From IMG/VR virus record IMGVR_UViG_3300042868_005071, positions 1 through 41,149 of that record: 41,149 nt of DNA; one strand, written 5' to 3'. Shown here piece by piece: positions 9,060 to 29,249 of the stretch. Source of the DNA: a virus. The notes beneath the pieces were generated by a model. It did no database searches and had not been told where the DNA came from. It saw only the letters and a list, made by a program, of their open reading frames with translations. Position 1 is the first letter of the stretch. Each line of letters begins with the position of its first letter. The position numbers and the translations under genes are program-made.

Positions 9060-9064
9060 AGATT

Positions 9065-11493: not shown

Positions 11494-11858
11494 AAATTTG
11501 GCTCTATGTAAGTTGTATTGTTATCAAATACGATATCGGTGTTTTCATTCGCCAAAACTTCGTACAATCCAACTTCCAACACGTTTAAAATTTCTTCGCT
11601 TTCAGGGTTGACCGCTCCTTCATTACCCTCGTAAAGTGTATATAAACACTGACCAACGGGTAAATTCCCAACATTGCAATCCCAAGCATCAAAACGGCCA
11701 GTAAATACGCTAAGGTTTTGAGCCTTTTCAAAGCCGAAAAAATAATCTTCATTCGTTGCTACGTGGTGAATGTTTAAATATACCCATGCACCGCTCACCA
11801 TGTTCTCGGTAGCGGTAAAGTATAGGCGGTTAACTGCGTTCGTTGTGATCAACTGCAT
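11490..11858 (-). CDS. Hypothetical virion-associated protein (122 aa)
   Basis: It starts directly behind the TTCCCATT element and overlaps the portal start by 4 nt. The sequence is beta-rich (MQLITTNAVNRLYFTATEN, WVYLNIHHVAT, GQCLYTLYEG) with an acidic C-terminus. Bacteroidetes phages often carry such a small beta-sandwich protein next to the portal. No family named. Copy 2 contains its C-terminal part. Confidence 0.65.
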   Translation of the reverse strand: MQLITTNAVNRLYFTATENMVSGAWVYLNIHHVATNEDYFFGFEKAQNLSVFTGRFDAWDCNVGNLPVGQCLYTLYEGNEGAVNPESEEILNVLEVGLYEVLANENTDIVFDNNTTYIEPNL

Positions 11859-11874
11859 ATTTATATAATGGGAA
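11859..11874 (-). promoter_or_regulatory. TTCCCATT element, instance D (portal module)
   Basis: Minus strand TTCCCATTATATAAAT immediately before the ATG at 11858, just after the terminator at 11893-11920. A new transcript is needed here to express the portal module, so this is the instance that most favours a promoter. The AT half reads TATAAATA across the start codon. Confidence 0.6.
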
Positions 11875-11892
11875 AAAACGAAAATGTAACGA

Positions 11893-11920
11893 ATAAAAAA
11901 AGGGAGCGTAAACGCCCCCC
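11893..11920 (-). terminator. Rho-independent terminator after the tail tube gene
   Basis: Minus strand GGGGGGCG, loop TTTA, CGCTCCC and a T7 tract. It separates the capsid/tail tube genes from the portal module. Confidence 0.85.
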
Positions 11921-11945
11921 TTCAAAATATGGAAAGTGTGTAGGG

Positions 11946-12437
11946 TTAAGGAGTGGTAATTGTATCAGAAGTGGTCAAGATTGGGTCTTTCTCCATTGAG
12001 GTAATGGTCAAAGTCATTCCGTTCAAGTCACCCATGGCAGTTCCAGTCGCACTTGTTCCAGTGGTTAAGTACGCTCCGTTTTCGACACCAAGTACCCACT
12101 GAACACCGTTGCGGTCAACGGCTACAACGGCCAACTTAGCTTGCGCCAACAACTTCAACTCATTGCGAAGGCCTGCGGTTAGCTTAGGCAATACGATTGA
12201 AAGTTCTGTTTGGTAAAAGGTAGTTCCATTTTCGATGCTCGATGTTACTGTTTCAGTAAATTGAGCGGTGTTCATTGGTAACTCGTAAAGGTACATATCG
12301 CCTGTAACGGTAGCGATAACACCTGAAACGGGAGCGGAATATGTGATATCCTCGAAGTTAGCCAAATAAACTTTTTTTAATCCACCAACGCTATCCTTAC
12401 AAGCGAGAGTGTATCCTGCGGTTAATGCGCAACTCAT
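11946..12437 (-). CDS. Major tail tube protein (163 aa)
   Basis: The protein starts MSCALTAGYTLACKDSVGGL and continues with beta strands KVYLANFED and VTGDMYLYELP, then an AQFTETVTSSIENGTTFYQTELSIVLPKL segment typical of tail tube subunits of Bacteroidetes phages. It sits next to the capsid gene between two strong terminators, as expected for a protein made in large amounts. Confidence 0.78.
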   Translation of the reverse strand: MSCALTAGYTLACKDSVGGLKKVYLANFEDITYSAPVSGVIATVTGDMYLYELPMNTAQFTETVTSSIENGTTFYQTELSIVLPKLTAGLRNELKLLAQAKLAVVAVDRNGVQWVLGVENGAYLTTGTSATGTAMGDLNGMTLTITSMEKDPILTTSDTITTP

Positions 12438-12458
12438 ATCTTTTTTTTTATTTTAGTT

Positions 12459-12489
12459 AAAAAAAAAGGGTGGGCGATTTCACCCACCC
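12459..12489 (-). terminator. Rho-independent terminator between capsid and tail tube genes
   Basis: Minus strand GGGTGGG, 8-nt loop, CCCACCC followed by nine T. It is a strong terminator inside the structural block. The tail tube gene 20 nt downstream has no promoter that I recognise, so partial read-through is implied. Confidence 0.9.
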
Positions 12490-12514
12490 CTTGGTTAATA
12501 GTTCAATCGATCTA

Positions 12515-13483
12515 TTAGGATGCAGCCATCATGAAACGACGTGTCTGATCAGGGAATGCGATTTGAACGCCTGCCTTGAATTCAGCAACGAAACGAACTT
12601 GATCAGCTTCTTTTGCGTAGAAGATTTCGAAACGCTCCTCTTCATTCAACAAGTCAGTACCGAAAACGAAGTGTGAAGTGCGACCTGCGTACAAATCATA
12701 TTCTCCGTTCAACCCGTTTACTCCGTACAACTTGATGTTAGAACCTGGCAAAGTCAATTCGTAATTTTCAACACCGTTCAAGTAAGAAATATTGAAATAG
12801 TTTTCAGCTACCAAACCTTGCTTAATTGCAGTGAATACGTCAACACCGCAGAAAATAGCAACGTCATCGTAACCTTTGATGTCCGCAGGAAGGTAAGTTT
12901 CAAAAGTGTTCAACAACTTGATAGCGTTTGTAGGTGTTGATTGCAAAGTAGCAAATGAAAGGTCAGTAGCCCAACCGTAAGCAGAAGCATTTAAGTCGAT
13001 ACAATCGGTAGAAGGGTTAGCAGTAGCTGCATCAGCAAAAATCTTGGCAAAACCAGTGATTGAACCTGACGTTCCTGCACCAGTCCATACCGCAGTTTCC
13101 AACGCCTTTTGAATAGAAGCAACCTTTTGTTCAGCGTAAACTTGTTCAAATGGAATGGTTGTAGGCATTGAACCAGCGGTTAACTGAGTTTGCATCCAGT
13201 ACTGCTCCAAAGACTTAGGACACATTGCTTCGTGTACTTTGGTATGAACCGCAGTCAAGTTGCGTTGTGTAAAATCAGTTGTGTTTCCTGAACCGTCAAA
13301 ACCACAAGTATTGCCATAAGCAAAAGTAGTTGTAGTGTCTAACAAGTTCAAAGCAGAAACATACTTAACACCAACTTGCTTGTTGATCAAAGAAATGGTG
13401 CGTGCGTTGAATAACGACTTTGTGATTAGGGGTAGGGTTTGTTGATTAGTATAAGTACTTAACCCAGCTAAATTGTAACTCAT
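12515..13483 (-). CDS. Major capsid protein (322 aa)
   Basis: Size, position after the protease and scaffold genes, and composition fit a HK97-fold capsid protein of Bacteroidetes phages. Features include an N-terminal arm (LSTYTNQQTLPLITKSLFNA), a segment EAMCPKSLEQYWMQTQLTAG, helix-rich EQVYAEQKVASIQKALETAVW, and a C-terminal beta-rich stretch ending in TRRFMMAAS. A strong terminator follows it. Confidence 0.85.
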   Translation of the reverse strand: MSYNLAGLSTYTNQQTLPLITKSLFNARTISLINKQVGVKYVSALNLLDTTTTFAYGNTCGFDGSGNTTDFTQRNLTAVHTKVHEAMCPKSLEQYWMQTQLTAGSMPTTIPFEQVYAEQKVASIQKALETAVWTGAGTSGSITGFAKIFADAATANPSTDCIDLNASAYGWATDLSFATLQSTPTNAIKLLNTFETYLPADIKGYDDVAIFCGVDVFTAIKQGLVAENYFNISYLNGVENYELTLPGSNIKLYGVNGLNGEYDLYAGRTSHFVFGTDLLNEEERFEIFYAKEADQVRFVAEFKAGVQIAFPDQTRRFMMAAS

Positions 13484-13489
13484 TTTTGT

Positions 13490-14068
13490 TTATTTTAATG
13501 CGTTTAAAAGATTTGAAAATTTATCGTTTTGCTTTTCCTTTGGATTCAAATAAGTGAAAGCAACAGGCTTTGAAACTTCGGCAGTTGGACGGCTTGCAAC
13601 CTCTTCAACAACAGCACTCATGGCTTCGGTAGCTTTACCCATTCCATCCATTCGGGTCATCATGTCGGCAATCATACCTTCCAACTTGGTGATACGCTCG
13701 CTCATTGATTCCATTTCCTTGGCGTGCTCAGGCATCATTTCGGCTTCGGCCATTTCCTCTTTCTTTTCGCCTGCTTCGATTTCTACTTCGATTTTTGGCT
13801 CTTCTTCAATAGGCATGATTTCAACAATCTTACCGCCTTCGGTTTTGATCTTAGCAACACCAACCAATTCGTGCTCTCCGTCTGGGGCAGGAACGGCGTT
13901 ACCATCTCCGTCGAGTACCATTACCTCCGCACCTACAACGATTTCACCGTTGATCGATACTTGACCACCACTTGCAAGGTCGTACATGGCGAACTCTTGG
14001 GCGGTTGGGGTAACTTCGGTCGACATGAGATAGCTTTTAATTTTTAGCAATTCAGCTTTAATATCCAT
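13490..14068 (-). CDS. Capsid scaffold-like protein (192 aa)
   Basis: The first 90 residues form a beta-rich domain with DLASGGQVSINGEIVVGAEV. A Glu/Lys/Met-rich coiled-coil region (EMESMSERITKLEGMIADMM) and a C-terminal NPKEKQNDKFSNLL tail follow. An acidic coiled coil between protease and capsid genes is the usual layout of a scaffold that is cleaved and leaves the prohead. Confidence 0.75.
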   Translation of the reverse strand: MDIKAELLKIKSYLMSTEVTPTAQEFAMYDLASGGQVSINGEIVVGAEVMVLDGDGNAVPAPDGEHELVGVAKIKTEGGKIVEIMPIEEEPKIEVEIEAGEKKEEMAEAEMMPEHAKEMESMSERITKLEGMIADMMTRMDGMGKATEAMSAVVEEVASRPTAEVSKPVAFTYLNPKEKQNDKFSNLLNALK

Positions 14069-14123
14069 GTGAAAAAAGTTTATTACTTATGAAATGGGAA
14101 GGCAAAAAAAAGTGACAAAAAAA
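14069..14123 (-). promoter_or_regulatory. TTCCCATT element, instance C (capsid module)
   Basis: Minus strand TTCCCATTTCATAAGT at 14085-14100, followed by a 16-nt AT-rich leader and the scaffold ATG at 14068. This is the only instance with a spacer to the start codon, and it fits a promoter whose transcript starts shortly after the element. Confidence 0.6.
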
Positions 14124-14708
14124 TTATAGCATCGAAAGGATTTCGTCAATCAAAATGACTTCCAACGGTAGTTGCTTGGATGCTTGGAAAGGAGCGTGAA
14201 TGAAATCACCCTCAACGCTAAATCCTTTAAACGTTCCGTCTTTAACCTGATTCCATACGTCTTCGTTGTTCACTTTGTACGTTCCAAACCAAGTTCCTTC
14301 GGGGCAATCCTCGAAACCTTTTGGCGAACCGATACCACGATCAGCATCGGTAATAAACGATTCAATCATAAACACGTCCTTAACGGGTGTTTTGTGTTCG
14401 GTGTTGACGTTGGAAATGTATTGGTTTTGCATGAACTTCTCCGCAATCTTTTTGATTGTTTCAGCGGTGTAAGTCACGTAGTACTCCCCAAACTTTTCGT
14501 CACGTCTGAAAATCATTGAATCGGGTATCATTAACGGACCTGTAACCAACCTTTTGTCTTCGTTAGCGGTGAACTTCACACGGTTGTTAAATGCTTGGAA
14601 ATTACGCTCGATTGCAGGAGCATTAACGAGTGCGACAAAGTCAACACCTGTGCCTTCGTCATCGTTTACTACAAGCGAGTAAACTGGTAAATCATTGTAA
14701 GTATTCAT
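14124..14708 (-). CDS. Prohead protease, XkdF/peptidase S78_2-like (194 aa)
   Basis: The pattern is characteristic: VTGPLMIPDSMIFRRDEKFG (about 56-75), GEYYVTYTAETIKKIAEKFM, NVNTEH (about 100-105, probable catalytic His), DRGIGSPKGFEDCPEGTWFG, and VKDGTFKGFSVEGDF with the probable catalytic Ser. These proteases mature the capsid and scaffold. It is followed directly by scaffold and capsid genes. Confidence 0.88.
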   Translation of the reverse strand: MNTYNDLPVYSLVVNDDEGTGVDFVALVNAPAIERNFQAFNNRVKFTANEDKRLVTGPLMIPDSMIFRRDEKFGEYYVTYTAETIKKIAEKFMQNQYISNVNTEHKTPVKDVFMIESFITDADRGIGSPKGFEDCPEGTWFGTYKVNNEDVWNQVKDGTFKGFSVEGDFIHAPFQASKQLPLEVILIDEILSML

Positions 14709-14709
14709 A

Positions 14710-16464
14710 TTATTTTCCTAATGTTGCGGTTCTTTGTAATCTTTGTGAGCGTTTTTGTTTGTCTGATATATCGGTTTCAAGTACGTAGGTTCTCATTGAA
14801 CCTTGTTGTAAGTTACCCTGAGCATCTAATTGAAGTTGGGTGCTTCCGATCGTTGGTGTAGTTGTAGCCATTGCAGAAGGTTGAGGAACTGAACCAACGC
14901 CACCGCCTGCACCACCTGCACCTTGCGATCCACCACCGAATTGAGTTTTGGCAATCTTTGCTACGTTTGCAAGTCCTGCGGTAAGTGCAATTCCCGCTTC
15001 AACAAATTGTGCACCCGTTGCAAGCTTGATCGGGTTACCACCTGCGGTTAGCGCACCCGTAACGGCTTGGTATGTTTGAATCAATGCTTGCGCTATTTGA
15101 AAAGATTTGTTAATCTTAAATGCTTTGCGTTGACTTTCCTCGGTGTTCTTTGTGAATGCCGTTGTTAACTGCATCAATGAATCCAACCCCATGGATGCAA
15201 GGCGCAACCCTGAGGAAATTTCGTCCATTTTATGTTGCTTTCTTTCATACGCTAATTGCGCATCAACTTCATTACTTTGTTTTTTTAAATCATTTAAAGT
15301 TAATAGTGAACGCTCTTCCTCTTTTGCAGTGTTTTGAATTAACCCTACTTCCTTGGTTTTTAATTCCCCTAAATCTTTGAAAAATGCTGTATTGTTTTCA
15401 CGTTCCTTTTCACGTCTTTTTTCCTCTGCTTTTTGGTTTGCATCTGCAACCGCTTTTTTGAAGTTAGCATCGAGAATTAAACGCTTATTTGTAGCGTCTG
15501 CAATTTCAGTAGTTAATTCTTTAATGCGTTTCTTTTCGTCATCGGTTGCAGTTCCTGCCTTCTCTTTGAGTTTCAAAGCATCTTGTTCTATCTTTAAATT
15601 CTTAATGCGTAGGTCTGCAAGTTGTTTTTCTAAATTGTAAATTTCTCTAATACCTTTTTGTTCGGCTTTTGCAAGTTCGATTCTGCGTTCAATTACCTTT
15701 TCGTTTTCTTTCATGGCATCCTTCGTTTTGTTAAAGGCTTCCACCACTTGTTCGGCGTTTTCTTTTGTTTTTTTAGTGGCCGTATTATCAATCAATCCAA
15801 AGGAAATTACGCTCAAAAAGTCACGCACCTTTGCAATGATTCCATCGAACGGTTTTAAAAGGTTCATTACAACCTTTTTAACGTCGTCAAAGTTGCTAAT
15901 CAATAAACCCAAACCAACAACCAACGCACCGATTCCAGTGGATGCTAACGCTAATCGAAACAACTTCATCGCACCCGTTGACGTTCCCACAACTGCGGTA
16001 TATGCCGTTTGAGCAGTTGTTGCAATCGCTAACCTCAACGCACTTTCTTTTTGCAATACGTTTGTGATAGCCGTTACCCCTTGAAGCAAAGCCATTGCAC
16101 CTTGCGTTTTTTTGATCGCTTCCTCAACTTGTTTATTCTCCGTACCAAACAAAGCGAGCGCACCCTGTGCAGCTGCGAAACCGCCCGCAATAGCCTGCGC
16201 ACCCTGAGCGAACGCATCCAACCTAAACGTATCGGAAGACAAAGCTTTGATCGCTGCCTTGGTATCCCCGATTTGGTCTTTAACTTCCCCTGCTCTTTGT
16301 TGTAAAACTTTAAAGTCAGCCGAACCTGCTTTGCCAGCATTCGACATATCATTTAAGGCTTTTTCTATTTGCCTTAATTCGTCTTTTAATGATTTAAAAT
16401 CTTTGTTTGCGTCGTCTGTTTCGGTCTTTACGCGCAACAAAATATCCTTAGTAGTATCTGCCAT
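14710..16464 (-). CDS. Tape measure protein (584 aa)
   Basis: Long helical and coiled-coil protein: DTTKDILLRVKTETDDANKD at the start, hydrophobic spans (ALASTGIGALVVGLGLLISN near 170-190, probable membrane-insertion region), a Lys/Glu coiled coil to about 400, and a Gly/Ala/Ser-rich tail (GGGSQGAGGAGGGVGS). At about 1.5 angstrom per residue the tail would be roughly 85-90 nm. The start overlaps the stop of the 737-aa gene by one base. Confidence 0.85.
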   Translation of the reverse strand: MADTTKDILLRVKTETDDANKDFKSLKDELRQIEKALNDMSNAGKAGSADFKVLQQRAGEVKDQIGDTKAAIKALSSDTFRLDAFAQGAQAIAGGFAAAQGALALFGTENKQVEEAIKKTQGAMALLQGVTAITNVLQKESALRLAIATTAQTAYTAVVGTSTGAMKLFRLALASTGIGALVVGLGLLISNFDDVKKVVMNLLKPFDGIIAKVRDFLSVISFGLIDNTATKKTKENAEQVVEAFNKTKDAMKENEKVIERRIELAKAEQKGIREIYNLEKQLADLRIKNLKIEQDALKLKEKAGTATDDEKKRIKELTTEIADATNKRLILDANFKKAVADANQKAEEKRREKERENNTAFFKDLGELKTKEVGLIQNTAKEEERSLLTLNDLKKQSNEVDAQLAYERKQHKMDEISSGLRLASMGLDSLMQLTTAFTKNTEESQRKAFKINKSFQIAQALIQTYQAVTGALTAGGNPIKLATGAQFVEAGIALTAGLANVAKIAKTQFGGGSQGAGGAGGGVGSVPQPSAMATTTPTIGSTQLQLDAQGNLQQGSMRTYVLETDISDKQKRSQRLQRTATLGK

Positions 16465-18677
16465 TATTCAGTTATTAATTGGGGTTTAGGTTCGTCTGCA
16501 ATAAATGCACCAGTACCTCCCGTTAATTGGAAAACGGTTGGTTCAAATGGCGCTAAATCTAACACTTTCAAAAGTTCGATTGAGGTTGACTCGTCGCTAT
16601 TTGCATCGTAATCATTTACTGATAGCAAGTAAAACAAAGTACCGTTAATATAAATCGGTTTGCGGAAGTCAAGGTTCAACACGTCAACTGCCGAAAGTTG
16701 TACAAATAACTTGACTTTCTTAGCATCCTTGTCGGTGTATAGCTTGACGTAATCCAACCAAAAACGGTTGAATAGGTTGTTGTTAGTGTACCTATAAATC
16801 GCTCCGCTTGTTTCGTCCGATTGGTAGTACAACTCCCGTGGAATACCAAAGCATAAATCGTAGGTTGGGTTGTATGGGTTATCTAAATTACCTGCGTATG
16901 GGTAACTCGTGTATTCGTTACCCTCGAAAACAAACTCCGTTTCGCTCGGAAATGGGATATACTCATGGTAAAGAATACGAAGGTTAGGGGTAACGGGTTT
17001 CACGTTCAATTCAACATCGCCACCGCTCGCAGTTCCTTTGTTATCGATGTCGTAATAACGTGCGTAAATACGTGGGCTTGGAGAAAATCCAACCATAACG
17101 CTATTGCCAAATCCAACGTCCTCGGATTGCTCCCCATTGCTGAACTCATTTGAACTAATGTAGGTGCGTGAACCGTAACTTGATTGATACGCACTTTGGT
17201 AACGTTTCTCGAAGTAACCGCCTGCATCCTTGTAATTGAACTTGTACGTCTTTGGGTTCATGTAGCCACATGGCACTACTTCGTAACCTTTCTCAACATC
17301 CCATAACGGAGTCCAGTCAAGGTAGTTCGAAGTATCGTAGAAATCCGAGAACGGCTCGATGTACAATTTCTTTTGGTCGTACTTATCCGGCATGATAAAC
17401 AAGTTGAACATACGAACCAAATACATAAGAAAATCGGATTGCTTCACCTTTGGCACAATCGTTTGGTTCATATCCCAAACAAATCCCGGTTGCATCAATG
17501 GCGTTCCACTGATCTGATTCAACCAATACGTACCATCGGTAAAAATACGCACGTAAGGTGCAGGCGAAATTGGCGTACCGCTATCAACTGAAAAATCCAT
17601 CCACACTTCAACGTAATCGGAAGTGGTCAAACTCATTTGTAAAATTCCGCTCAACTGTTGTGCCGTTGAACCTCCACCTGCAACCCATGTGTATTCAATA
17701 ATTTGGGTTAATGTAGTTCCATTTTTACGAACGTACACTTTAACCGTCTGATCAAATCCAAGTGCCAAGTTAGGTTGAACGTTAACACGTACTTGAATAT
17801 TGAAATCACCGTTAAATGGTGGGGTGTATCGCTTATTCGTGGTATCATAACCGCCACCGTCAAAGAATGGTGAAGGCGTATCGGTAGCCATGTTCACCTT
17901 TTGAAGCGTGCCATCAGAAATATCTTGAATACCACCACTCAAACCAATGTAAAACAACGCACCGCTCATTTGCTCTTCCGTCAAATAAGGCACACCACTA
18001 ACGCCATACGGTACTATCAACTGCTTAAACCATTGCGAGGTAAGGAAGTTACTCTCATAAGTAAATCCCGCACCGCTCACAATCTTATCGAGGTACTTTT
18101 TTACCGAAATAGCAGGGTAAAAGTCAGCCGTAGTAAATACGTCCGCATAAGGTGCAGGGGCTTGGGTACGTGTGAAACTCGATTGGCCGTAATCGATTGC
18201 AGGGTAATAGTAATCGTTACCCGTGCTTCCTACGGAATTAGTCCACGAATCCACGATATTACTCCCATCCCATTCGTGGTTCAACTCACTAAAATCTAAA
18301 TCAGTCAATTCGCTATCGCCTAACTGCTTAAACAAGTTGACGTTTTCCCCGTACAAACCGACTTCGTACGTCTTAAATTGGCCGTCACTCTTAACCGCCA
18401 ATAATTGCGCAATGCCATTAAATACCTCAACACCGTTCTGCAACACGTAAGCATTAACCCGCACGCTCGGGTCAAATCCAATTACCCACTGATCAAATCG
18501 GTAAATCGAACCAAACACATTGTCGTTGCTTGGAGTTCCCGGAATTTCAATGGTTCTGCTAACCGTTCCTTTGCGCTCTACGGGGTTTTCTATGTCAGTG
18601 ATGGAATACGTCAAGCGAATATCAATATCGTCGCTTAAATCCAATCTTTGCCCGTCTATGTAAAGTTCTGTTATCAT
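16464..18677 (-). CDS. Large tail-tip/baseplate protein (737 aa)
   Basis: Begins MITELYIDGQRLDLSDDIDI with TVSRTIEIPGTPSND, a start I associate with tail proteins of Bacteroidetes siphoviruses. The N-terminal part resembles a tail-hub fold. The centre is rich in aromatic residues and beta strands, and the C-terminus ends in a short acidic tail. It lies between the 440-aa tail protein and the tape measure gene. It is probably the tail-hub or tail-associated protein. Exact role inferred. Confidence 0.7.
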   Translation of the reverse strand: MITELYIDGQRLDLSDDIDIRLTYSITDIENPVERKGTVSRTIEIPGTPSNDNVFGSIYRFDQWVIGFDPSVRVNAYVLQNGVEVFNGIAQLLAVKSDGQFKTYEVGLYGENVNLFKQLGDSELTDLDFSELNHEWDGSNIVDSWTNSVGSTGNDYYYPAIDYGQSSFTRTQAPAPYADVFTTADFYPAISVKKYLDKIVSGAGFTYESNFLTSQWFKQLIVPYGVSGVPYLTEEQMSGALFYIGLSGGIQDISDGTLQKVNMATDTPSPFFDGGGYDTTNKRYTPPFNGDFNIQVRVNVQPNLALGFDQTVKVYVRKNGTTLTQIIEYTWVAGGGSTAQQLSGILQMSLTTSDYVEVWMDFSVDSGTPISPAPYVRIFTDGTYWLNQISGTPLMQPGFVWDMNQTIVPKVKQSDFLMYLVRMFNLFIMPDKYDQKKLYIEPFSDFYDTSNYLDWTPLWDVEKGYEVVPCGYMNPKTYKFNYKDAGGYFEKRYQSAYQSSYGSRTYISSNEFSNGEQSEDVGFGNSVMVGFSPSPRIYARYYDIDNKGTASGGDVELNVKPVTPNLRILYHEYIPFPSETEFVFEGNEYTSYPYAGNLDNPYNPTYDLCFGIPRELYYQSDETSGAIYRYTNNNLFNRFWLDYVKLYTDKDAKKVKLFVQLSAVDVLNLDFRKPIYINGTLFYLLSVNDYDANSDESTSIELLKVLDLAPFEPTVFQLTGGTGAFIADEPKPQLITE

Positions 18678-19996
18678 AACGGCATCGCTTCGTCAAAGGT
18701 GAATTTGTAGGTAATGGTGAGCGTGTGCAACTGGTCGAAGTCACGTTTCCAAACGTTATAGCTGGTATCGGTTACCAAAATGGGAACTAAATAATCGACA
18801 ACCCCTTCATCGGTCTGAAATGATTTGCGTAACCAAAGACGTGGCGAACGTACCATTTGCGCTAACCATTCAAATTCTTGATCAGTCAACCAATCAGAAG
18901 AAACCGTAAACTCTTTGTTGTAATCTACTTGTGCGTTGTACTTGGAGAAATTAGTGTAACCACCATAAACAGCAGGAACTCCACCATCACCAAAATTATC
19001 CGTCAAATACGGACGGCTCGCTTCCGTTCTTTGTATCGTTTGCCTTTCTCGGTTTGGCTTGGTAAACACGTAAGAATCCACTCCACCCAACTGGTTCTCA
19101 AAATGTACCTCGGTAAAGTCAAAACGTGAACATTCGTTGGTCATTCTAACCGTGTACTCGATCGATGCTTGGTTAGTTCCTTCATCCTGAAAAGCTGTAA
19201 CGGTATAGTAAGAACTTTCATTCAATACATCAATCCCGTTTTCCCCATCCGAAGTAATTGTACCGCTAATGTTTGAAACATCAAAAGGCATAAATGGAAC
19301 TGCAATAAGATTAAAGTCATTTTGCTCACTCGAAGCGTGCGACGTGTGGTTAACCGTTGGAATATAGTACTCACGTCCCAACGTGTTTGTTGAATCGTAA
19401 TAACGGTAACGGATGTAATCAATATTAGGCGATGTTTCCTTACTACATAGGAAGTAAAGATTTCCACTTTGAAGGTAAACTTGCGAAAAGTTACCGTAAG
19501 CCTTGGTTGATTGTGGGCGGTTTGTCAATGGCAATCGAGTATCAACCACATCGCTATCTATCCAGTAATTACCTTTGAAGTAAGGAAATTGAGCAAAGTC
19601 AAAAACAGTCCAAGCCCCGTTGTAAATAATAGCAGGTTCAGCCTGAATCGCTGACGAACTTCCACCCGTGTATTCTTCGTCAAATTCTACTTCAAACTCA
19701 ATGTATTGCGTAGGGCATCCAAAACTTTCGGATACTACAATCGAACCATCTGCAATTCGTGGGGTAACTTCAAAATAACCTCGCACGATTTCTTGAAAAT
19801 TGAACCTTCCACGGTTGCTATTCGTCACGCTCGGTACCGTCTTCAACTTCGCTACCAAGTTTCCATTTATAGAAACATTTGCCACGTATCGAAAGTTCGG
19901 CTCGGTACTATTATCACTATCAACCACGTACACCAACGGATTACCCGCAGGCGAATACCTTGGTTCAGTTACTTGGGTTATTATCGTTATTGCCAT
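18674..19996 (-). CDS. Tail structural protein (440 aa)
   Basis: A beta-rich protein beginning MAITIITQVTEPRYSPAGNP. It has aromatic-rich stretches such as FAQFPYFKGNYWID and DYIRYRYYDSTNT, and ends FDQLHTLTITYKFTFDEAMPL. The gene overlaps the 737-aa gene start by 4 nt. It is probably a distal tail or tail-tip component working with that protein. No catalytic motif seen. Confidence 0.65.
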   Translation of the reverse strand: MAITIITQVTEPRYSPAGNPLVYVVDSDNSTEPNFRYVANVSINGNLVAKLKTVPSVTNSNRGRFNFQEIVRGYFEVTPRIADGSIVVSESFGCPTQYIEFEVEFDEEYTGGSSSAIQAEPAIIYNGAWTVFDFAQFPYFKGNYWIDSDVVDTRLPLTNRPQSTKAYGNFSQVYLQSGNLYFLCSKETSPNIDYIRYRYYDSTNTLGREYYIPTVNHTSHASSEQNDFNLIAVPFMPFDVSNISGTITSDGENGIDVLNESSYYTVTAFQDEGTNQASIEYTVRMTNECSRFDFTEVHFENQLGGVDSYVFTKPNRERQTIQRTEASRPYLTDNFGDGGVPAVYGGYTNFSKYNAQVDYNKEFTVSSDWLTDQEFEWLAQMVRSPRLWLRKSFQTDEGVVDYLVPILVTDTSYNVWKRDFDQLHTLTITYKFTFDEAMPL

Positions 19997-19997
19997 A

Positions 19998-20564
19998 TCA
20001 TTTAAAAATCACTGCGGTCATCGCTTGGGCTGTAAATTCTGCAACCCTTTGCGCTAAATCATTTAATCTGTTTTCGGTAAGTGTTGGTTGAACGAATGGG
20101 TGAGCATAAGTTCCCTTTTTGTAAATGCTTCTACGTACTCGTGAAGCCAAAGAATACACATCCTTTTTCCCGCTCGCCATATTTTTGAATTGTACCCATT
20201 TAACCATATCGTCTAATCGTGGGTATTCCTTAACGGTAAATGGAGAATTAGGGGCTTTGGTACTGCTTTCAGTACCTTTTTGCCCGTACTCCAACGTCTT
20301 CCAGTACGCAGGTGCTACAATTTCAACAACGTACTCTTTACCAAAACGTTTCATAGGTAATGGCACTGTGCCCGATTGAAGATTACCCGTTACTTGGCTT
20401 CCGTTATCTTTAATTTGTTTGCGGAATAACTCGATCTGTTCGTGACACCAATCGACGATTTCCTTTTCAACACCTTCAAAAGCTTGGTCAACGTCGGTAG
20501 TACCAAACCCACTAACCGCAGGATTGAACGCACCACTCACATCGTTAAACTCGATAAATGCCAT
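19998..20564 (-). CDS. Tail completion / HK97 gp10-like protein (188 aa)
   Basis: The segment DVDQAFEGVEKEIVDWCHEQ leads into a beta-rich middle with YVVEIVAPAYWKTLEYGQKG, and the protein ends YAHPFVQPTLTENRLNDLAQ. The A-x-x-YWxxLEYG and HPFVxPT features are typical of gp10-type tail completion proteins. It follows the tail assembly chaperones and starts directly behind a TTCCCATT element. Confidence 0.72.
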   Translation of the reverse strand: MAFIEFNDVSGAFNPAVSGFGTTDVDQAFEGVEKEIVDWCHEQIELFRKQIKDNGSQVTGNLQSGTVPLPMKRFGKEYVVEIVAPAYWKTLEYGQKGTESSTKAPNSPFTVKEYPRLDDMVKWVQFKNMASGKKDVYSLASRVRRSIYKKGTYAHPFVQPTLTENRLNDLAQRVAEFTAQAMTAVIFK

Positions 20565-20580
20565 ACTTATTAAATGGGAA
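20565..20580 (-). promoter_or_regulatory. TTCCCATT element, instance B (tail module)
   Basis: Minus strand TTCCCATTTAATAAGT directly abutting the ATG at 20564, in the 27-nt gap behind the tail assembly chaperone frame. It differs at two positions from instance C and at one from instance A. Confidence 0.6.
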
Positions 20581-20591
20581 ATCCTGAAAAG

Positions 20592-20867
20592 TTACCCATT
20601 CGCTCTACGCTTTATTTCAAAGGCCTCATGCTTGCTTTTCTCAACTTGGTAACTCGCATAGTTCAAGAACTCCATCGCTGGCAATTCAAAGACTTCACTC
20701 CATTTAAGAACATCGCTACCGGCTAACCGATCAATGACTACAATCCATCCGTAACGCTCGGTGAATCCTGTTCCAAGGTCAGGGCGTCCATCTCCGCCTT
20801 CAACGTCTGCATTTCCTTGTCCAAATAGGTTGGTAAATCTTCGAGCAACTTCACCCAACTGGCCAAA
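20592..20867 (-). CDS. Downstream frame of the tail assembly chaperone pair, reached by -1 frameshift
   Basis: This frame is -1 relative to the upstream gene and has no convincing start of its own: the first possible codon is a TTG. The C-terminal part (ERYGWIVVIDRLAGSDVLKW, then SEVFELPAMEFLNYASYQVE) looks like the T part of G/GT tail chaperones. Slippage on the T9 tract at 20865-20873 would fuse it to 162 residues of the upstream protein, giving about 253 aa. Confidence 0.78.
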   Translation of the reverse strand, partial: FGQLGEVARRFTNLFGQGNADVEGGDGRPDLGTGFTERYGWIVVIDRLAGSDVLKWSEVFELPAMEFLNYASYQVEKSKHEAFEIKRRANG

Positions 20868-21352
20868 AAAAAAGCGGACAATCCCAACGCTTCAACAGCT
20901 AACATCTTTTCCTTCACCAACGTCGCACGCTTTGAATGGTCTTTCCCGTTGTACTTTTCAGGAAACCAACCTAACTTCGTTTCACGTAGAAGCGATGCAA
21001 CGCACAAATGCAAGTTCTTTACACCGTCTTCTTTTGTCTTATTCCACTCGCTTATTTCCACGAACTGAGCGGTGTTTATTTCGTCAAAGAATCGTGTAAC
21101 GTAGTATCGCTTTCCGTCAACCTTTACGAATGATTTGAACGGTTTGAACGGCTCTTTCTCCAACTGCTTGGCAATGGCTTCGTACCGTTTACGTAATTCA
21201 ATCAACGGGTAATTATCAACGGCATCAAATCCGTTACCCTCAACGATTGCTACAACCGATCGCATATACTCCCACCCTTCCAAGTGGTTGAGGTCTGCCA
21301 AAAGTTGATACTGACCTACGGTTAATTTTTTCCAAATGTTATTGTATCGCAT
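20738..21352 (-). CDS. Tail assembly chaperone, unshifted form (204 aa)
   Basis: Starts MRYNNIWKKLTVGQYQLLAD and continues as a helical protein (LIELRKRYEAIAKQL, NLHLCVASLLRETKLGWFPE), as expected for lambda G-like chaperones that coat the tape measure protein. Codons 160-163 read GCT TTT TTT TTG, containing nine T in a row. The frame overlaps the next frame by about 120 nt, giving the standard short product plus a minor frameshifted product. Confidence 0.8.
   Translation of the reverse strand: MRYNNIWKKLTVGQYQLLADLNHLEGWEYMRSVVAIVEGNGFDAVDNYPLIELRKRYEAIAKQLEKEPFKPFKSFVKVDGKRYYVTRFFDEINTAQFVEISEWNKTKEDGVKNLHLCVASLLRETKLGWFPEKYNGKDHSKRATLVKEKMLAVEALGLSAFFLASWVKLLEDLPTYLDKEMQTLKAEMDALTLEQDSPSVTDGL
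20865..20873 (-). promoter_or_regulatory. T9 slippery site for -1 ribosomal frameshift
   Basis: Nine consecutive T on the coding strand contain the X XXY YYZ heptamer T TTT TTT in the zero frame (codons 160-162). A GTTGG/CCAAC pairing (20855-20859 with 20829-20833) could form a weak downstream stem. Confidence 0.8.
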
Positions 21353-22499
21353 ATTTTCCTCTATTCTTTTCTGCTAATTTATTTAATGCTAAATACCTCA
21401 AAGCATCCATGCCGTGATTGAATGAATCTATCGGTACGTTGGTAGCGTTACCGTCCTTTTCCTTCCATTTGTAGGCATTCAATTCTTTGAGTAAGTTACT
21501 GGACCTATTCGTTACATTAAAGCGAAATCGTTTCAATATATCGATGCCGTTTAGTATACTATCTTTCCCCTTGTTTGCGCCTTCAACCCTCCAACCCATG
21601 CGCCTGATTTCCTCGATGCTTTTCGGTTCGGCTGAATCCGCTACAATGGTAACGCTTCTATCTATACCCGATTGGGTAAAATATTGGCTAATGTCCTGAT
21701 TTGTGTACCCTTTATGGTACATTACTTCGTCAATGATTAACTCACCGTTGTAACGGTACACTCCCACAACTGCGGTCGGGTCATTGGTGAATCCGAAGTC
21801 CATCCCGTAGCCAATCAACTGAGCATCGCTCGGTATCGTTCCAATCGTTCCCCAATTACGGTAAATCAACCCTTCAATTTTACCCGTCATCCCACGGGCG
21901 TACACCTTCCAAAGTTCCTCGTCCTCGCTCCTAATCGCTTCAATCTTTTTGCGAATAATATCGGGTAAAAATGGGTTATGTCGGTGATCTGATATGATTA
22001 ATTCCACGCCTTCCTTACCTATCAATTTATCATGCACCCAGAACCGAGCGTTCGGGTTGTAGTCAATAAACACTTTTTTCTTTGTACGCATTGCAAGCTC
22101 GGAATAGATTTCATAGCTAATTCCGTTGGCTTCGTTTAAAAAGAAATAGTCACGCTTTCCGCTCTTTGCATCTTGCGAATCTTGGTAGCTTTTGAATTCA
22201 ATGATTGAACCGTTTTGAAACGTGTAAATACGATCGCTCGCATTGTATCCTTTTATCCAACTTTGAATATCAGGCGAACTTGCTACAATCGTTTGCATAT
22301 CCCTGAGCGCACCGCTTTTAAGGTTCGGCACGTCCTGACCTACAACGCTAATTACTTGGTCATTTTCGGCAATCGCTTTTAAGCATAGCACTTGTAATAT
22401 CGAGTAAGTTTTGCCCGAACTGGTCCCGCCTTGGTTAACAATAACCTCGGCAGTTGAATTGTAGTTGCGATCGAATATGACAGACGTTTGAAACATCAA
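21339..22499 (-). CDS. terL: Terminase large subunit (386 aa)
   Basis: Walker A GGTSSGKT at 24-31, Walker B YFFLNEAN at 118-125, and nuclease acidic residues D234 (GMDFGFTNDP), D288 (VADSAEPKS) and D365 (NHGMDALRY). This is the PBSX/XtmB-like group of packaging ATPase-nucleases. It cuts and pumps genome DNA into the prohead through the portal. It overlaps the small terminase stop by 4 nt and the chaperone start by 14 nt. Confidence 0.95.
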   Translation of the reverse strand: MMFQTSVIFDRNYNSTAEVIVNQGGTSSGKTYSILQVLCLKAIAENDQVISVVGQDVPNLKSGALRDMQTIVASSPDIQSWIKGYNASDRIYTFQNGSIIEFKSYQDSQDAKSGKRDYFFLNEANGISYEIYSELAMRTKKKVFIDYNPNARFWVHDKLIGKEGVELIISDHRHNPFLPDIIRKKIEAIRSEDEELWKVYARGMTGKIEGLIYRNWGTIGTIPSDAQLIGYGMDFGFTNDPTAVVGVYRYNGELIIDEVMYHKGYTNQDISQYFTQSGIDRSVTIVADSAEPKSIEEIRRMGWRVEGANKGKDSILNGIDILKRFRFNVTNRSSNLLKELNAYKWKEKDGNATNVPIDSFNHGMDALRYLALNKLAEKNRGKYAIQ

Positions 22500-22939
22500 T
22501 CCAAAATAATTGCATCCTCACTGTTTGAAAGCGGTGTAACACTTTGAACCAACCCAATCTGTATTTCGGCTTTTGGAAGGCTTACGGTAGTATCAACGGT
22601 TTCCTTCGGTTTACCGTATACCCTATCCATCAACACCTCGATCAAGTGAATTGAACCACGCTCGTAATCACGTTGGGCTTTCTTTGCAATCATGGAAATC
22701 CAAAACGGTACATCGTCACTCTTTGCGTAATCCATTAACTGCGTACGGGTCATTCCAAGTATTCCCGTAATAATTTCATTGGCTTGGGAATGGCTTAACC
22801 TAACGTTGAACTCTTGCAGGAACGTGTCTTTAATTACGTTCTTCAATAGCTTTGGCCTTCCATTTCGGTTGATGTTTTCTGAATTGGTATCGAACCCGTT
22901 TTTTGGTGGTTTCCCTTTTAATTTTTCTCCGCTTGGCAT
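22496..22939 (-). CDS. terS: Putative terminase small subunit (147 aa)
   Basis: Begins MPSGEKLKGKPPKNGFDTNS with NINRNGRPKLL, a KGRPK-type N-terminal arm also found in DUF5681-like small terminases. A DNA-binding helical region follows, then KAQRDYERGSIHLIEVLMDR and VYGKPKE. It directly precedes the large subunit, the canonical position. Family assignment is moderately certain. Confidence 0.75.
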   Translation of the reverse strand: MPSGEKLKGKPPKNGFDTNSENINRNGRPKLLKNVIKDTFLQEFNVRLSHSQANEIITGILGMTRTQLMDYAKSDDVPFWISMIAKKAQRDYERGSIHLIEVLMDRVYGKPKETVDTTVSLPKAEIQIGLVQSVTPLSNSEDAIILD

Positions 22940-24075
22940 ACTCCGTTTATTTTAATGGTTAACGATGGGTCTAACTTTTTCATGCGGTCAATAATGCCTT
23001 GGCAATACCTCGGCTCAAGTTCCATCCCATAGCATTTGCGTTTCAATTGATGTGCAGCTACCATTGTAGAGCCACTTCCTAAAAATACATCAACAATAAT
23101 ATTACCAATGTCCGAAGTTGCTTCAATTGCTCGTGCTGGTAATTCAACTGGCTTTTGTGTTGGATGGATATATTCTTTACTTCTATGATCTTGAGTTTCC
23201 CATAAATTTCCCTGCCTTTTCCCACGCAATTTAACTTTGCCATTAACAGCATATATTGCAAATTCATGCTGATTCCAAAAAGATTCCAAATCACCGAGCC
23301 CTCCTGCTTGTTTCGCCCATACTATGCAATTTGTAACTTTGTAAGATTGCGAAACTAAATCAATCCATTTCGAATAAACATCCCATCTTGTCCAAATGTA
23401 AAAAGCAACATTTTTGTTTACTGGGATAATTGGCAAAAAGTCGCAATCAATTACATCATCATTTTTTATATATTCAAATTCATCTTTTCGTTTATTAGAC
23501 TTATAGTTTATACCATATGGAGGATCAGTGTGAACCATGTCAGCTTTTTCCCCATTCATTAACCGAGCAACTTGGTCGCTATCAGTACTATCCCCACAAA
23601 GCAAACGATGCTCACCAATTTCGATTAAATCACCCAACACAATATCCGTTTCAATACCATCTTCGGAAACTTCAAAGTCATCCTCAACCGCTTCCATTTC
23701 AATAAAAGAATCAGTCGGTAAATCCAATCCCCACTCCGTCAACTCTTCGGCATCCCAATTATTCGCTAAATCTTCCCAATCCCATTCCCCAAACCCAACG
23801 TTATCCTTGATGATAAATTCCTTTTGTTGGTCTTCGGTTAAATCTTCGGCCTTGATCACTGGAACTTCTTTCAACCCTGCTTCCTTGCACGCCTTCAATC
23901 GCATATTACCACCCAAAACAATACCGTCAATGTTAACTACAATCGGGCGCAGTTCTAACATTTCGGGAAAGTCCTGAATCGACTTAACCAACTTTTTGAA
24001 CTTATCGTCTTTAATTACCCTTGGATTGTTGGGGTTCGCTTTAACCTCCGATACTTTCCACTTTTCAATTTTCAT
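22918..24075 (-). CDS. ParB-like domain fused to DNA N-methyltransferase (385 aa)
   Basis: Residues 1-110 are a ParB/sulfiredoxin-like domain (NPNNPR at 14-19, GGNMRLKACKEAG at 55-67). The methyltransferase part has the catalytic DPPYG (184-188), HPTQKP (304-309) and the SAM-binding FLGSGST (331-337). DPPY before FxGxG is the order of beta-class N6-adenine or N4-cytosine enzymes. It probably modifies phage DNA against host restriction. It overlaps the small terminase start by 22 nt. Confidence 0.9.
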   Translation of the reverse strand: MKIEKWKVSEVKANPNNPRVIKDDKFKKLVKSIQDFPEMLELRPIVVNIDGIVLGGNMRLKACKEAGLKEVPVIKAEDLTEDQQKEFIIKDNVGFGEWDWEDLANNWDAEELTEWGLDLPTDSFIEMEAVEDDFEVSEDGIETDIVLGDLIEIGEHRLLCGDSTDSDQVARLMNGEKADMVHTDPPYGINYKSNKRKDEFEYIKNDDVIDCDFLPIIPVNKNVAFYIWTRWDVYSKWIDLVSQSYKVTNCIVWAKQAGGLGDLESFWNQHEFAIYAVNGKVKLRGKRQGNLWETQDHRSKEYIHPTQKPVELPARAIEATSDIGNIIVDVFLGSGSTMVAAHQLKRKCYGMELEPRYCQGIIDRMKKLDPSLTIKINGVCQAEKN

Positions 24076-24266
24076 ATTTCAATTTTGTTAACGATCTCTT
24101 TTAGCTTCTGCATACACATAAGCTTTAATTCGTAATCGGTAGCACCGCCCACGCTCACATGGTCGGCAGTTTCTGCAATATCCATAAGCAAGTTGGCAAT
24201 GGTAGCGTATAACTCAACCGCCCCAATCGCCTGTTCAATTACGTCCTTTTCTTTTTCCGTAGTCAT
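24072..24266 (-). CDS. Hypothetical helical protein (64 aa)
   Basis: Short acidic helical protein (EKEKDVIEQAIGAVELYATI, LLMDIAETADHV). It is translationally coupled to both neighbours by 4-nt overlaps. No family recognised. Confidence 0.6.
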   Translation of the reverse strand: MTTEKEKDVIEQAIGAVELYATIANLLMDIAETADHVSVGGATDYELKLMCMQKLKEIVNKIEI

Positions 24267-24715
24267 TTTTCTAACTCCTTCAACTTTGCTTCACTCCAAC
24301 GTAACCCAGCTAAACCACCCCAAAGAAGGTAGGAAATGTAACCGCAATCAGTAGGCTTACCCGTTTCGTAATACGTCTTTGCACGGCTCAAATAGGAGTA
24401 CATTCTTTTAATCGTTGATACACTTAGAGGCTCACCATCACGCAACTGCGTTGCACGAATTTTGCCCACCTGCGTGGCGCACTGATTACCGTTCTTTTCG
24501 TTAAGTTCAATCCCTCGTTTGGCATTGTTCTTTACCGCTTCGGGGTAATCGGAATGGCTTTCAAACTTTGCGTAACTTTCCTTTCGGCTCAAAGCGTTAC
24601 ACACCGCTAACCGTTGGATTGGGTCTTCATACTCCGTTTTCATGACTGTATTAATCATGCAACGGTCTAAGAACTCACTTTTGCTTTCGTCTTGGTTTCT
24701 TTTCGGTAGTGGCAT
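24263..24715 (-). CDS. Conserved phage protein with YPEAVKNNAKRGIEL motif (150 aa)
   Basis: Residues 57-71 read YPEAVKNNAKRGIEL. A VGKIRATQLRDGEPLSVSTI segment and RMYSYLSRAKTYYE follow, and the end is GYISYLLWGGLAGLRWSEAK. This helical unit recurs in phages, often attached to prohead or packaging proteins. I recognise the pattern but not a proven function. It overlaps the preceding gene by 41 nt. Confidence 0.6.
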   Translation of the reverse strand: MPLPKRNQDESKSEFLDRCMINTVMKTEYEDPIQRLAVCNALSRKESYAKFESHSDYPEAVKNNAKRGIELNEKNGNQCATQVGKIRATQLRDGEPLSVSTIKRMYSYLSRAKTYYETGKPTDCGYISYLLWGGLAGLRWSEAKLKELEK

Positions 24716-24983
24716 CTTGAATGATTTGTTCGTGAATGGCTTTGTGTCTTAGGTCTAATTCAGCATCGTAATGGTTCATGATAGTCGAGAATGCGTTAAC
24801 GGTGCACGCTTGGCATCCACCCGTCCAACGTTTACCCATTACCTCACTCCATACACCACCCATTAACGCTACTTGCTCACCACTTAGGCGCAACGTCTTT
24901 TCGTTTTGGAACTGAACCCACTTTGGGTACAATGGCTCTAACCGCTTCAACTGTTCGTCGGTCATTTTGTTAGCTAATTTCAT
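24675..24983 (-). CDS. Hypothetical protein with CxxC (102 aa)
   Basis: Helical, with GGCQACTVNAFSTIMNHY (one CxxC) and a very basic C-terminal tail (EKKPRRKQK). A metal- or nucleic-acid-binding role is possible. It overlaps the DUF3310-like gene by 14 nt at its start. Confidence 0.6.
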   Translation of the reverse strand: MKLANKMTDEQLKRLEPLYPKWVQFQNEKTLRLSGEQVALMGGVWSEVMGKRWTGGCQACTVNAFSTIMNHYDAELDLRHKAIHEQIIQDATTEKKPRRKQK

Positions 24984-25161
24984 ATTTCTGCATTTCTCGT
25001 TTAAGGTAATAAAACGCTTTTTCTAAATCCTCTAAGGTATCCCCTTTGCGCCCTGCACGACTTACGTACTTAACCACGTTTCCGAGGTTGAAGTTTAAGT
25101 CAAACGCTTCAATTAGGTCAATCGGTTGTACCTTTTGTTTATAGTGGTTTGGTGTTGTCAT
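24970..25161 (-). CDS. DUF3310-like protein (63 aa)
   Basis: Begins NHYKQKVQPIDLIEAFDLNF and continues NLGNVVKYVSRAGRKGDTLE, the signature of DUF3310, a small phage protein family found next to nucleotide metabolism genes. Its exact activity is not established. The length is at the short end for the family. Confidence 0.85.
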   Translation of the reverse strand: MTTPNHYKQKVQPIDLIEAFDLNFNLGNVVKYVSRAGRKGDTLEDLEKAFYYLKREMQKYEIS

Positions 25162-25355
25162 TTGCCGTAAGTTTCGTTATAGTATTCGATTGAGTCAATT
25201 CGATCACGGGCAACTTCACCATGACAGAACGCTCTTCTAATCTGTTCCTTCTCCATTTCTTTGGCTTGGCTGATAACTTTTTCAGCACTATTTCTTGTAA
25301 GTGCTCTATAATTTTCTATTTGTTCAACCAACCATTCTACTGCTGTTTGTTTCAT
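25158..25355 (-). CDS. Hypothetical helical protein (65 aa)
   Basis: MKQTAVEWLVEQIENYRALT starts an amphipathic helix, and VISQAKEMEKEQIRRAFCHG follows. Small phage proteins with this WLVEQIE start are common in Bacteroidetes phages and of unknown function. Coupled to its neighbours by 4-nt overlaps. Confidence 0.65.
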   Translation of the reverse strand: MKQTAVEWLVEQIENYRALTRNSAEKVISQAKEMEKEQIRRAFCHGEVARDRIDSIEYYNETYGK

Positions 25356-25609
25356 CGGTAAATCCTATCGATTAAAAAATAAGCAATGATACAAGCGATA
25401 AAACCGCACCCAATAGAATAAGCAAACAGGCTCAACACGGGCAGTTCTACCGTTGCAAAGAACGAACCCACCGCAGTCCAAAACGAAAGGCATACAAAGC
25501 AGTTAAATGGCTTGAACCCTATCTTGTCGCCAATACCCGTAAGCTTGGTAATCGTTACTCCTGCACAAGCAGAGAAAAACGCAATGAATAATATTTGTAA
25601 GTAAATCAT
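25352..25609 (-). CDS. Small membrane protein (85 aa)
   Basis: Three hydrophobic segments: LQILFIAFFSACAGVTI, FWTAVGSFFATVELPVL, and SLFAYSIGCGFIACIIAYFL. A FNCFVCLSFW motif with CxxC lies before the second span, reminiscent of DUF1360-like membrane proteins. It lies in the middle gene block, so superinfection or envelope functions are as plausible as lysis. Confidence 0.6.
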   Translation of the reverse strand: MIYLQILFIAFFSACAGVTITKLTGIGDKIGFKPFNCFVCLSFWTAVGSFFATVELPVLSLFAYSIGCGFIACIIAYFLIDRIYR

Positions 25610-25830
25610 TTTATTTCGTGAATTTTAGGGTATTGTTTGTTTAACTCAAACCATTCTTTCCTACGTTGAATAATCATTTCAGCTTCTTCAAATGTTTTAA
25701 CGATTGGCTTGATATGATAATAACTTAATGAAATTATTTGCGTATCTATTGATTCCCATTTTGAAAACAAATCCTTTTTTATTTGGGCGCAAAATTCATT
25801 TTCGCTAAATTGAATAATTCGGTATTTCAT
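25606..25830 (-). CDS. Hypothetical protein (74 aa)
   Basis: A MKYRIIQFSENEFCAQIKKD start and IVKTFEEAEMIIQRRKEWFE near the end give an alpha/beta layout seen in many small phage proteins of unknown role. Coupled to the sigma-like gene by a 4-nt overlap. Confidence 0.6.
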   Translation of the reverse strand: MKYRIIQFSENEFCAQIKKDLFSKWESIDTQIISLSYYHIKPIVKTFEEAEMIIQRRKEWFELNKQYPKIHEIK

Positions 25831-26339
25831 TTCAATTTCTTTTTTAATTTGTCCTTAACCGTGTTAATGGTCAATCTTATGCTGTTGTATGGTATAGTAG
25901 TCGATGTGCTGATACGTCGCATATTTTTGGCTTCAACGTAAACCATAAACAAATTACGTTCGTACCAATGCAGTTCAGCAATGGCTTCCTCAATTGCTTC
26001 CATTTGCTTTGATGTTTGAACCTCGCTTTCATGGTCGTAGATTTCAGCGATCACTTCAACACGTGTCCAGTCAACGTCAACACGTAACAACCGATCACGG
26101 TACTTCTGATCCCACAACGAACCCTTACCCAAAAACAAACGGTAGATTAATGATAGCACGTACCACCGATGCCCTCCCGAATGCCATACCTCCCAAAGCT
26201 TTGCATCCTCTTTTTCAAGTAGTGCAAGTAGCATTTCTTGGTATAAGTCCTCCCCGTCGAAGTGCGTACCCCTCACAATGTCATAGCAGGATTTGCGATA
26301 ACTTTGGTGTTGGAGTACGTCTGCGATCAGTGGGTGCAT
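25827..26339 (-). CDS. Sigma-70-like factor, candidate late transcription factor (170 aa)
   Basis: Residues 28-45 (DGEDLYQEMLLALLEKED) look like sigma region 2, the core-binding EDLxQExxLxL helix. The C-terminus (LFMVYVEAKNMRRISTSTTI, then PYNSIRLTINTVKDKLKKKL) fits a region 4 helix-turn-helix. Regions 1 and 3 are missing. Small phage sigma relatives such as T4 gp55 direct late transcription. The gene starts right behind a TTCCCATT element also found before three virion modules. Confidence 0.72.
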   Translation of the reverse strand: MHPLIADVLQHQSYRKSCYDIVRGTHFDGEDLYQEMLLALLEKEDAKLWEVWHSGGHRWYVLSLIYRLFLGKGSLWDQKYRDRLLRVDVDWTRVEVIAEIYDHESEVQTSKQMEAIEEAIAELHWYERNLFMVYVEAKNMRRISTSTTIPYNSIRLTINTVKDKLKKKLK

Positions 26340-26355
26340 ACTTATTGAATGGGAA
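26340..26355 (-). promoter_or_regulatory. TTCCCATT element, instance A (before the sigma-like gene)
   Basis: Minus strand TTCCCATTCAATAAGT directly abutting the ATG at 26339, in the short gap behind the SSB-tip gene. If it is the promoter read by the sigma-like factor, the factor would amplify its own synthesis. Confidence 0.6.
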
Positions 26356-26358
26356 ATT

Positions 26359-26631
26359 TTAGAAAGGTAACCCGTCGTCTTCGGGTACGAATCCTGCCTT
26401 GGTTAATGCAGGGTGAATTTCGCTCGGTGCTTGCATCGGTGCATCCTTTGCTTTCCATTTTACCCAGTGCGTTGCTTTGCTCTTTTGATCAACCTCTTTG
26501 CGCTGACCTACAAATACTTCAATATCCCCGTATTGGTTGGTGGGTAAATCGAGTAAATCTTGTTTTTTCAGTTGAACCTTTACACCGTACTGGTTTGCCC
26601 AACCTTTGCCTACATACTTTTCGTTTTCCAT
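26359..26631 (-). CDS. Small protein with SSB-type acidic C-terminal tip (90 aa)
   Basis: An N-terminal beta-rich domain (GWANQYGVKVQLKKQDLLDL, GDIEVFVGQRKE, THWVKW) is followed by a linker and a final PEDDGLPF. Single-stranded DNA-binding proteins end in a similar D-D-x-x-P-F tip that recruits replication and repair proteins. The domain is shorter than a usual OB-fold SSB. It may be a phage ssDNA-binding protein or a mimic of the SSB tip. Confidence 0.6.
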   Translation of the reverse strand: MENEKYVGKGWANQYGVKVQLKKQDLLDLPTNQYGDIEVFVGQRKEVDQKSKATHWVKWKAKDAPMQAPSEIHPALTKAGFVPEDDGLPF

Positions 26632-29227: not shown

Positions 29228-29249
29228 AGCTTGTTTGTTATTGGTATTA

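Follow-up and report, generated by a model that had tools for sequence, protein, structure and literature searches.

What are the four near-identical 16-nt elements that stand in front of the sigma-factor gene and the tail, capsid and portal modules of an uncultured phage, and what reads them? The phage is represented by the IMG/VR record IMGVR_UViG_3300042868_005071, all 41,149 nt of which were analysed (hereafter, the window), and we infer its host phylum to be Bacteroidota. A preliminary description had taken the elements for phage late promoters, perhaps used by the sigma-like factor. Our analysis makes it likely that they are indeed phage late promoters read by the phage's own sigma factor of the extracytoplasmic function (ECF) type, with transcription predicted to start on the A of the ATG or beside it, so that the mRNAs would be mostly leaderless. 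The promoter assignment gained from a bipartite anatomy, from conservation and from a flanking terminator; the word 'late' rests on the genes served, and 'late plus autoregulatory' describes the set more accurately, since the sigma gene has a copy of its own.

All four copies lie on the minus strand, at 26340-26355, 20565-20580 and 14085-14100 as exact matches and at 11859-11874 with one mismatch, and precede the sigma gene, the tail module, the capsid module and the portal module, respectively. Three abut an ATG (open reading frames starting at 26339, 20564 and 11858), the fourth is separated by a 16-nt leader from the open reading frame starting at 14068, the copy at 11859 sits directly behind an intrinsic terminator (11923-11898; its hairpin has -16.4 kcal/mol and a z of -3.1), and the host promoter form TAnnTTTG is found in none of the four; on these points the preliminary description was accurate. 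Upstream of each copy we found a second box, which had been overlooked. GTnACnTTT, starting 16-17 nt before TCCC, precedes four of the four copies (as GTTAC, GTAAC, GTCAC and GTTAC, then nTTT), so that the complete unit reads GTnAC-N11/12-TCCCATTnnATAAGT-A:

26340..26371, minus strand: element 1, full two-box unit GTTACCTTTCTAAAATTTCCCATTCAATAAGT, abutting the ATG of the sigma gene; present in 23 of 24 distinct contexts from relatives.
20565..20595, minus strand: element 2, GTAACTTTTCAGGATTTCCCATTTAATAAGT, abutting the ATG of the first tail-module gene (neck/tail completion).
14085..14116, minus strand: element 3, GTCACTTTTTTTTGCCTTCCCATTTCATAAGT, wholly non-coding, with a 16-nt leader to the scaffold-like gene of the capsid module.
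11859..11890, minus strand: element 4, GTTACATTTTCGTTTTTTCCCATTATATAAAT, right behind a terminator and abutting the ATG of the pre-portal gene.

The core CCCATTnnATAAnT occurs four times in sense and 0 times in antisense orientation, whereas 200 dinucleotide shuffles gave 0.015 occurrences per strand on average; the record holds no further copy with up to one mismatch, and a reversed-pattern control gave 0. GTHACNTTT is found seven times on the minus strand of the window, four of them at the elements, and the full unit GTnAC-N11/12-TCCCATTnnATAAGT four times, always at an element and 0 times in shuffles. A chance repeat of an AT-rich motif could appeal to the looser count, since 12 matches with up to three mismatches (6.2 expected) are barely over chance, which is why only close copies were counted; this explanation is refuted by the conservation in relatives together with the core and two-box counts, and we regard its probability as vanishingly small.

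Because the second box was derived from these four sites, its weight comes from relatives. Across 42 distinct instances in the family, the unit is always 31 or 32 nt long with a variable spacer sequence. Directly after the element, 41 of them have A and one has G, and in 26 this base belongs to the ATG itself. An invariant purine at this position would fit the geometry of leaderless mRNAs. If transcription starts at that base, CATTnnAT falls at exactly -12 to -5, the register of the flavobacterial sigma-A box TAnnTTTG, which lies at -12 to -5 from the transcription start (PMC9723704).

Elements fused to start codons could also act on translation, as an initiation enhancer or as the site of an RNA-binding translational regulator. 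Where the element abuts the ATG, at three copies, A occupies -3 and -6, Kozak-like positions at which A favours translation initiation in Flavobacterium (PMC6847099), and the corresponding elements of a sibling clade and of the cultured phage P12024S, both described below, likewise stand at ATGs. Yet the unit at the scaffold site lies 16 nt from its ATG and is equally conserved, the upstream box at its fixed distance may fall in the preceding gene or directly behind a terminator, most phage genes lack the element altogether, and the C-rich part plays no translational role. As the sole explanation we consider this very unlikely, although a translational role may exist in addition to the promoter role.

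The preliminary description had proposed a motif search in related phages, and we gathered relatives by exact scanning of IMG/VR and by tblastn with the sigma protein. The element precedes the same four genes in dozens of contigs. Approximately full-length records (G001, G002, G007 and G008) carry four elements each on a single strand, and G005 carries five, the extra one being a duplicate pre-portal site near the other end of the record. When distinct upstream contexts of the four genes were compared (24, 21, 25 and 23), the element was found with two changes or fewer everywhere except in six contexts; these were a recognisable variant (L159), two sites of the distant relative G004 and three sibling-clade contigs. 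The element is unchanged in relatives with a different spacer, a different flanking terminator or another allele of the tail gene behind it; at element 4, the hairpin sequence of the terminator varies in relatives and the promoter boxes are constant. About 28 matches to the element pattern in viral contigs outside the family were taken as chance; some of these belong to a single conserved locus (MLKEG...) that has a Shine-Dalgarno-like site.

In three relatives (L036, L070 and G002), an unchanged element is followed directly by another allele of the first tail gene, which suggests module exchange at the promoters. Could the element be nothing but a conserved linker for such exchange by homologous recombination? 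The allele change, together with an Erf-like annealing protein encoded by the phage, speaks for this idea; a bipartite anatomy with fixed spacing, an orientation bias, base-specific conservation and the joint change seen in G004 would not be expected of a passive linker, and exchange at promoters is a normal by-product. We therefore rate the linker as highly improbable, even more so than the translational explanation.

The candidate reader of the elements is encoded directly behind element 1:

25827..26339, minus strand: ECF-type RNA polymerase sigma factor of 170 aa (regions 2 and 4), assigned from TIGR02937, PHROG 1740 and predicted fold.

Profile matches and predicted fold indicate that the formerly 'sigma-like' product is an ECF-type sigma. 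The TIGR02937 (sigma70-ECF) match covers residues 13-169 (E=5.3e-5; E=9.2e-8 for the G004 copy), and the product also matches PHROG 1740. A Pfam search and a sequence-profile search of the Protein Data Bank (PDB) with the window protein returned no sigma match, the sibling-clade copy alone gave no TIGR02937 match, and tblastn of the window and sibling sigmas against named phages found no match. A structural model built with 18 aligned relatives reached a predicted local distance difference test (pLDDT) score of 71; an AlphaFold run with 10 near-identical rows (pLDDT 55) was discarded. The model comprises two confident helical domains joined by a poorly modelled linker, and its top PDB matches are ECF sigma chains (probability 1.00), followed by further sigma chains, with a best E of 2e-3. 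The second domain aligns with sigma-E region 4 bound to -35 DNA at a template modelling (TM) score of 0.72-0.75; full-length TM-scores are low because of the linker. The start codon to which element 1 is fused is supported by the N terminus MHPL, which is kept in G004.

More distant relatives carry other forms of the element. G004 is collinear with the window phage over its full length at 24-69% protein identity. In it, TCTGCATTCnAT occurs exactly three times, each time at the counterpart of a window site (tail, scaffold and pre-portal), in the same register and with 0 antisense copies. At the non-coding scaffold site, GTCACTTTTT is kept in G004, where the capsid protein is 69% and the scaffold 44% identical. 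In a larger sibling clade (capsid 42%, sigma 31% identical), an upstream box GACACnnTT / GCAACATT / GTGAAATT is followed by a variable spacer and then by ACATTTACC. At the tail and protease genes, ACATTTACC stands 11 nt ahead of the ATG; a third gene has it upstream, with a leader. A reading of the sibling TACATTT boxes as host-type promoters, with the sigma expected to be absent, was dropped: the sigma is present and many boxes read GACATTTACC.

The cultured marine Nonlabens phage P12024S is linked to the family through its portal protein. In its genome, seven ATGs, that of the pre-portal gene included, have a AAAACAAA-N-CGTTAATA unit 11-12 nt upstream. CGTTA[AC]TN3-6ATG occurs seven times in sense and 0 times in antisense orientation (0.31 expected), with AAAACAAA upstream at near-fixed spacing, and the ATG of late genes stands behind CGTTAATAnnnn. 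The two-box element is kept in marine relatives with 67% and 48% sigma identity. P12024S gp33 carries the annotation Sigma-70 region 2 and matches the sigma profile with E=1.2e-5; its gene lies immediately upstream of that for the terminase. A related sigma lies near the terminase in every one of the four clades with start-codon-fused elements, and the element sequence varies by clade together with the sigma.

These comparisons bear on the possibility that the elements are phage-specific late promoters read by way of a host ECF sigma or another phage activator, with the phage sigma serving otherwise. The -10-like forms do resemble flavobacterial ECF promoters with their CGT box (PMC9723704), and the link between sigma and element rests on association. 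Against such a reader stand the presence of a phage sigma near the terminase in all four clades, the clade-by-clade change of the element along with the sigma, and the position of element 1 on the sigma gene itself; we consider it improbable, although the least so among the alternatives. Association and clade-wise joint change make the phage's own sigma the most likely reader.

The interpretation as promoters is supported by the fixed 16-17 nt spacing, the variable spacer, the conservation at the same genes and the invariant purine, and further by the terminator, the lack of convincing host-type promoters in the structural region and the equivalent elements before late genes of other sigma-carrying clades. 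From these sequence patterns we infer promoter activity, use of the sigma, start site, timing and feedback. Several observations weigh against the interpretation. Leaderless mRNAs are a small minority in flavobacteria, at 5.5% in Flavobacterium psychrophilum (PMC9723704). At elements 1 and 2, the -35-like box extends into the end of the preceding coding sequence, and its conservation there may be partly coding. The TIGR02937 score of the sigma is under the curated cut-off (22.9 versus 42.9 bits). The G004 sigma gene (42% identical) has no element upstream, so autoregulation is not universal; G004 is moreover a single genome, and its variant pattern matched no other relative in viral contigs. 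The sibling ACATTT boxes are partly like the host TAnnTTTG and may overlap with the host box. Finally, a loose cross-clade two-box pattern exceeds shuffles modestly in single genomes and not at all in G004.

The genes and terminators downstream of elements 2-4 define what the promoters would serve:

19998..20564, minus strand: neck/tail-completion-like protein, first gene of the tail module (phrog_5, E=0.0014).
13490..14068, minus strand: scaffold-like protein, first gene of the capsid module (from composition and a position between protease and capsid).
12515..13483, minus strand: major capsid-like protein (from position and conservation).
12465..12492, minus strand: intrinsic terminator behind the capsid gene.
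11898..11923, minus strand: intrinsic terminator at the boundary of the capsid and portal modules, directly upstream of element 4.
11490..11858, minus strand: conserved 122-aa gene, first of the portal module and before the portal gene (positional synteny with P12024S gp05).
9643..11493, minus strand: portal protein.

Upstream of element 1, a 90-aa gene (26359-26631) ends in DDGLPF, which resembles the C-terminal tail of single-strand binding proteins; this end (DGLPF*) is overlapped by the GTTAC box of element 1 (26367-26371).

Early genes carry a different signal. The host-type form TTG-N18..22-TAnnTTTG with TTGCACAATTAA... precedes early genes at 29279, 5895, 6041 and 4393:

29250..29279, minus strand: host-type promoter TTGCACAATTAAATTTTACCCTTATCTTTG, early region, upstream of the sigma gene.
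6012..6041, minus strand: host-type promoter TTGACGAGAACAAATAAAGTCGTATCTTTG.
5866..5895, minus strand: host-type promoter TTGCACAATTAAATTTCATGTCTATCTTTG, early region.
4364..4393, minus strand: host-type promoter TTGCACAATTAACTTTCATTTGTATATTTG, before the Erf-like gene.

Host-type promoters are also found in a second, partial copy of the phage within the window and in the early region of close relatives. The structural region has no convincing ones, with weaker matches inside coding sequences at chance level; a scan for Escherichia coli-type sigma-70 promoters was uninformative (27 versus 41 expected). A repeat family of 47-68 bp (107-174, 4355-4401, 5835-5902, 29219-29285, 33955-34001 and 35456-35503) largely coincides with the host-type early promoters. 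No strong minus-strand terminator was found between 29279 and 12492, so early transcription can reach the sigma gene.

We propose that the host-type TAnnTTTG promoters drive the early genes and that read-through would yield the first sigma protein. Host core RNA polymerase carrying the phage ECF-type sigma (25827-26339) most likely then reads the elements, recognizing GTnACnTTT as a -35-like box and CATTnnAT within TCCCATTnnATAAGT as a -10-like box at a fixed distance. The sigma would boost its own gene via element 1 and open the tail, capsid and portal modules via elements 2-4. Transcription most likely begins with the A behind the element. At three sites this would be the start-codon A and the mRNAs would be leaderless; at the fourth site the transcript would have a 16-nt leader.

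The window consists of one phage unit of ~29.1-29.6 kb followed by a 12-kb second copy (29113-41149 versus 1-11670) that is 87-95% identical; the record either joins two related phages in tandem or merges, as an assembly, two strains whose genome is circularly permuted. On the minus strand, 28458-28616 and 28694-28774 hold a tRNA-like gene, which scores 38.7 bits with the Rfam tRNA model and has an extra ~90 nt in the anticodon region, and a weaker tRNA-like copy next to it. ARAGORN reports none, and the gene could be intron-bearing or decayed. In one relative, G001 (L123; 9579-11633), the Walker A motif of the terminase (GGTS^SGKT) is interrupted by ~890 bp of intein-like sequence that begins CFHPDTMIV, ends VHN and contains internal stops or a frameshift. 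A capsid search of genome contigs returned no relative, and so no host or prophage link was obtained.

For a broader proposition we see roughly even chances: that a widespread group of Bacteroidota phages has long held an ECF-type sigma with start-codon-fused promoters, that leaderless late mRNAs are its rule and possibly favoured in translation over host mRNAs, and that within each genome the sigma changes in step with every promoter copy, forming a natural series of matched sigma-promoter pairs. The proposal gives a testable rule for abundant uncultured phages, stating which genes, which boxes and which first base, with the cultured P12024S as a test case. Matched pairs would be useful for studies of specificity, and virion genes may here be transcribed without leaders as a rule, although leaderless transcripts are rare in the phylum.

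Late promoters read by phage sigmas have precedents, those of phages 7-11 and phiEco32 being the nearest in layout. The late sigma SaPh711_gp47 of Salmonella phage 7-11 uses late promoters of the form GTAAtg-(16)-aCTA (PMC8948821). Phage 7-11 shares with the window phage a phage sigma working with the host core polymerase (predicted here), bipartite late promoters, a GTnA -35 box and host-type early promoters; unlike the window phage, it is enterobacterial and belongs to another group, its published starts lie at a distance of 6-9 bp from the element, and leaderless fusions have not been described. The 7-11 promoters came from RNA mapping and the window elements from conservation; the comparison covers the promoter layout (PMC8948821). 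Sigma gp36 of phiEco32, which reads middle/late promoters with tAATGTAtA (PMC8948821), is likewise a phage sigma for middle/late genes; it uses a single-element promoter and has no recognisable region 4, whereas the window phage combines two boxes with a region-4 domain. ECF promoters of F. psychrophilum (motif SM6, CGT box; PMC9723704) also involve a two-domain sigma and a CRTT/CGTT-like -10 box, in the phylum inferred for the host. They differ in governing host regulons (secretion and others), in the anti-sigma partner, none being identified in the window phage, and in their usual leaders. P12024S (Inhavirus), a distant relative, shares a sigma (gp33) near the terminase and has its own repeated element at late-gene ATGs, and differs in the element (AAAACAAA / CGTTAATA) and its seven copies. 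The literature searched, with many subscription journals outside its scope, held no description of the P12024S promoters and nothing on late transcription control in Bacteroidota phages. Phage-sigma late promoters are thus already established by phiEco32 and 7-11; what is new here is the phage group, the fusion to the start codon and the clade-specific promoter forms.

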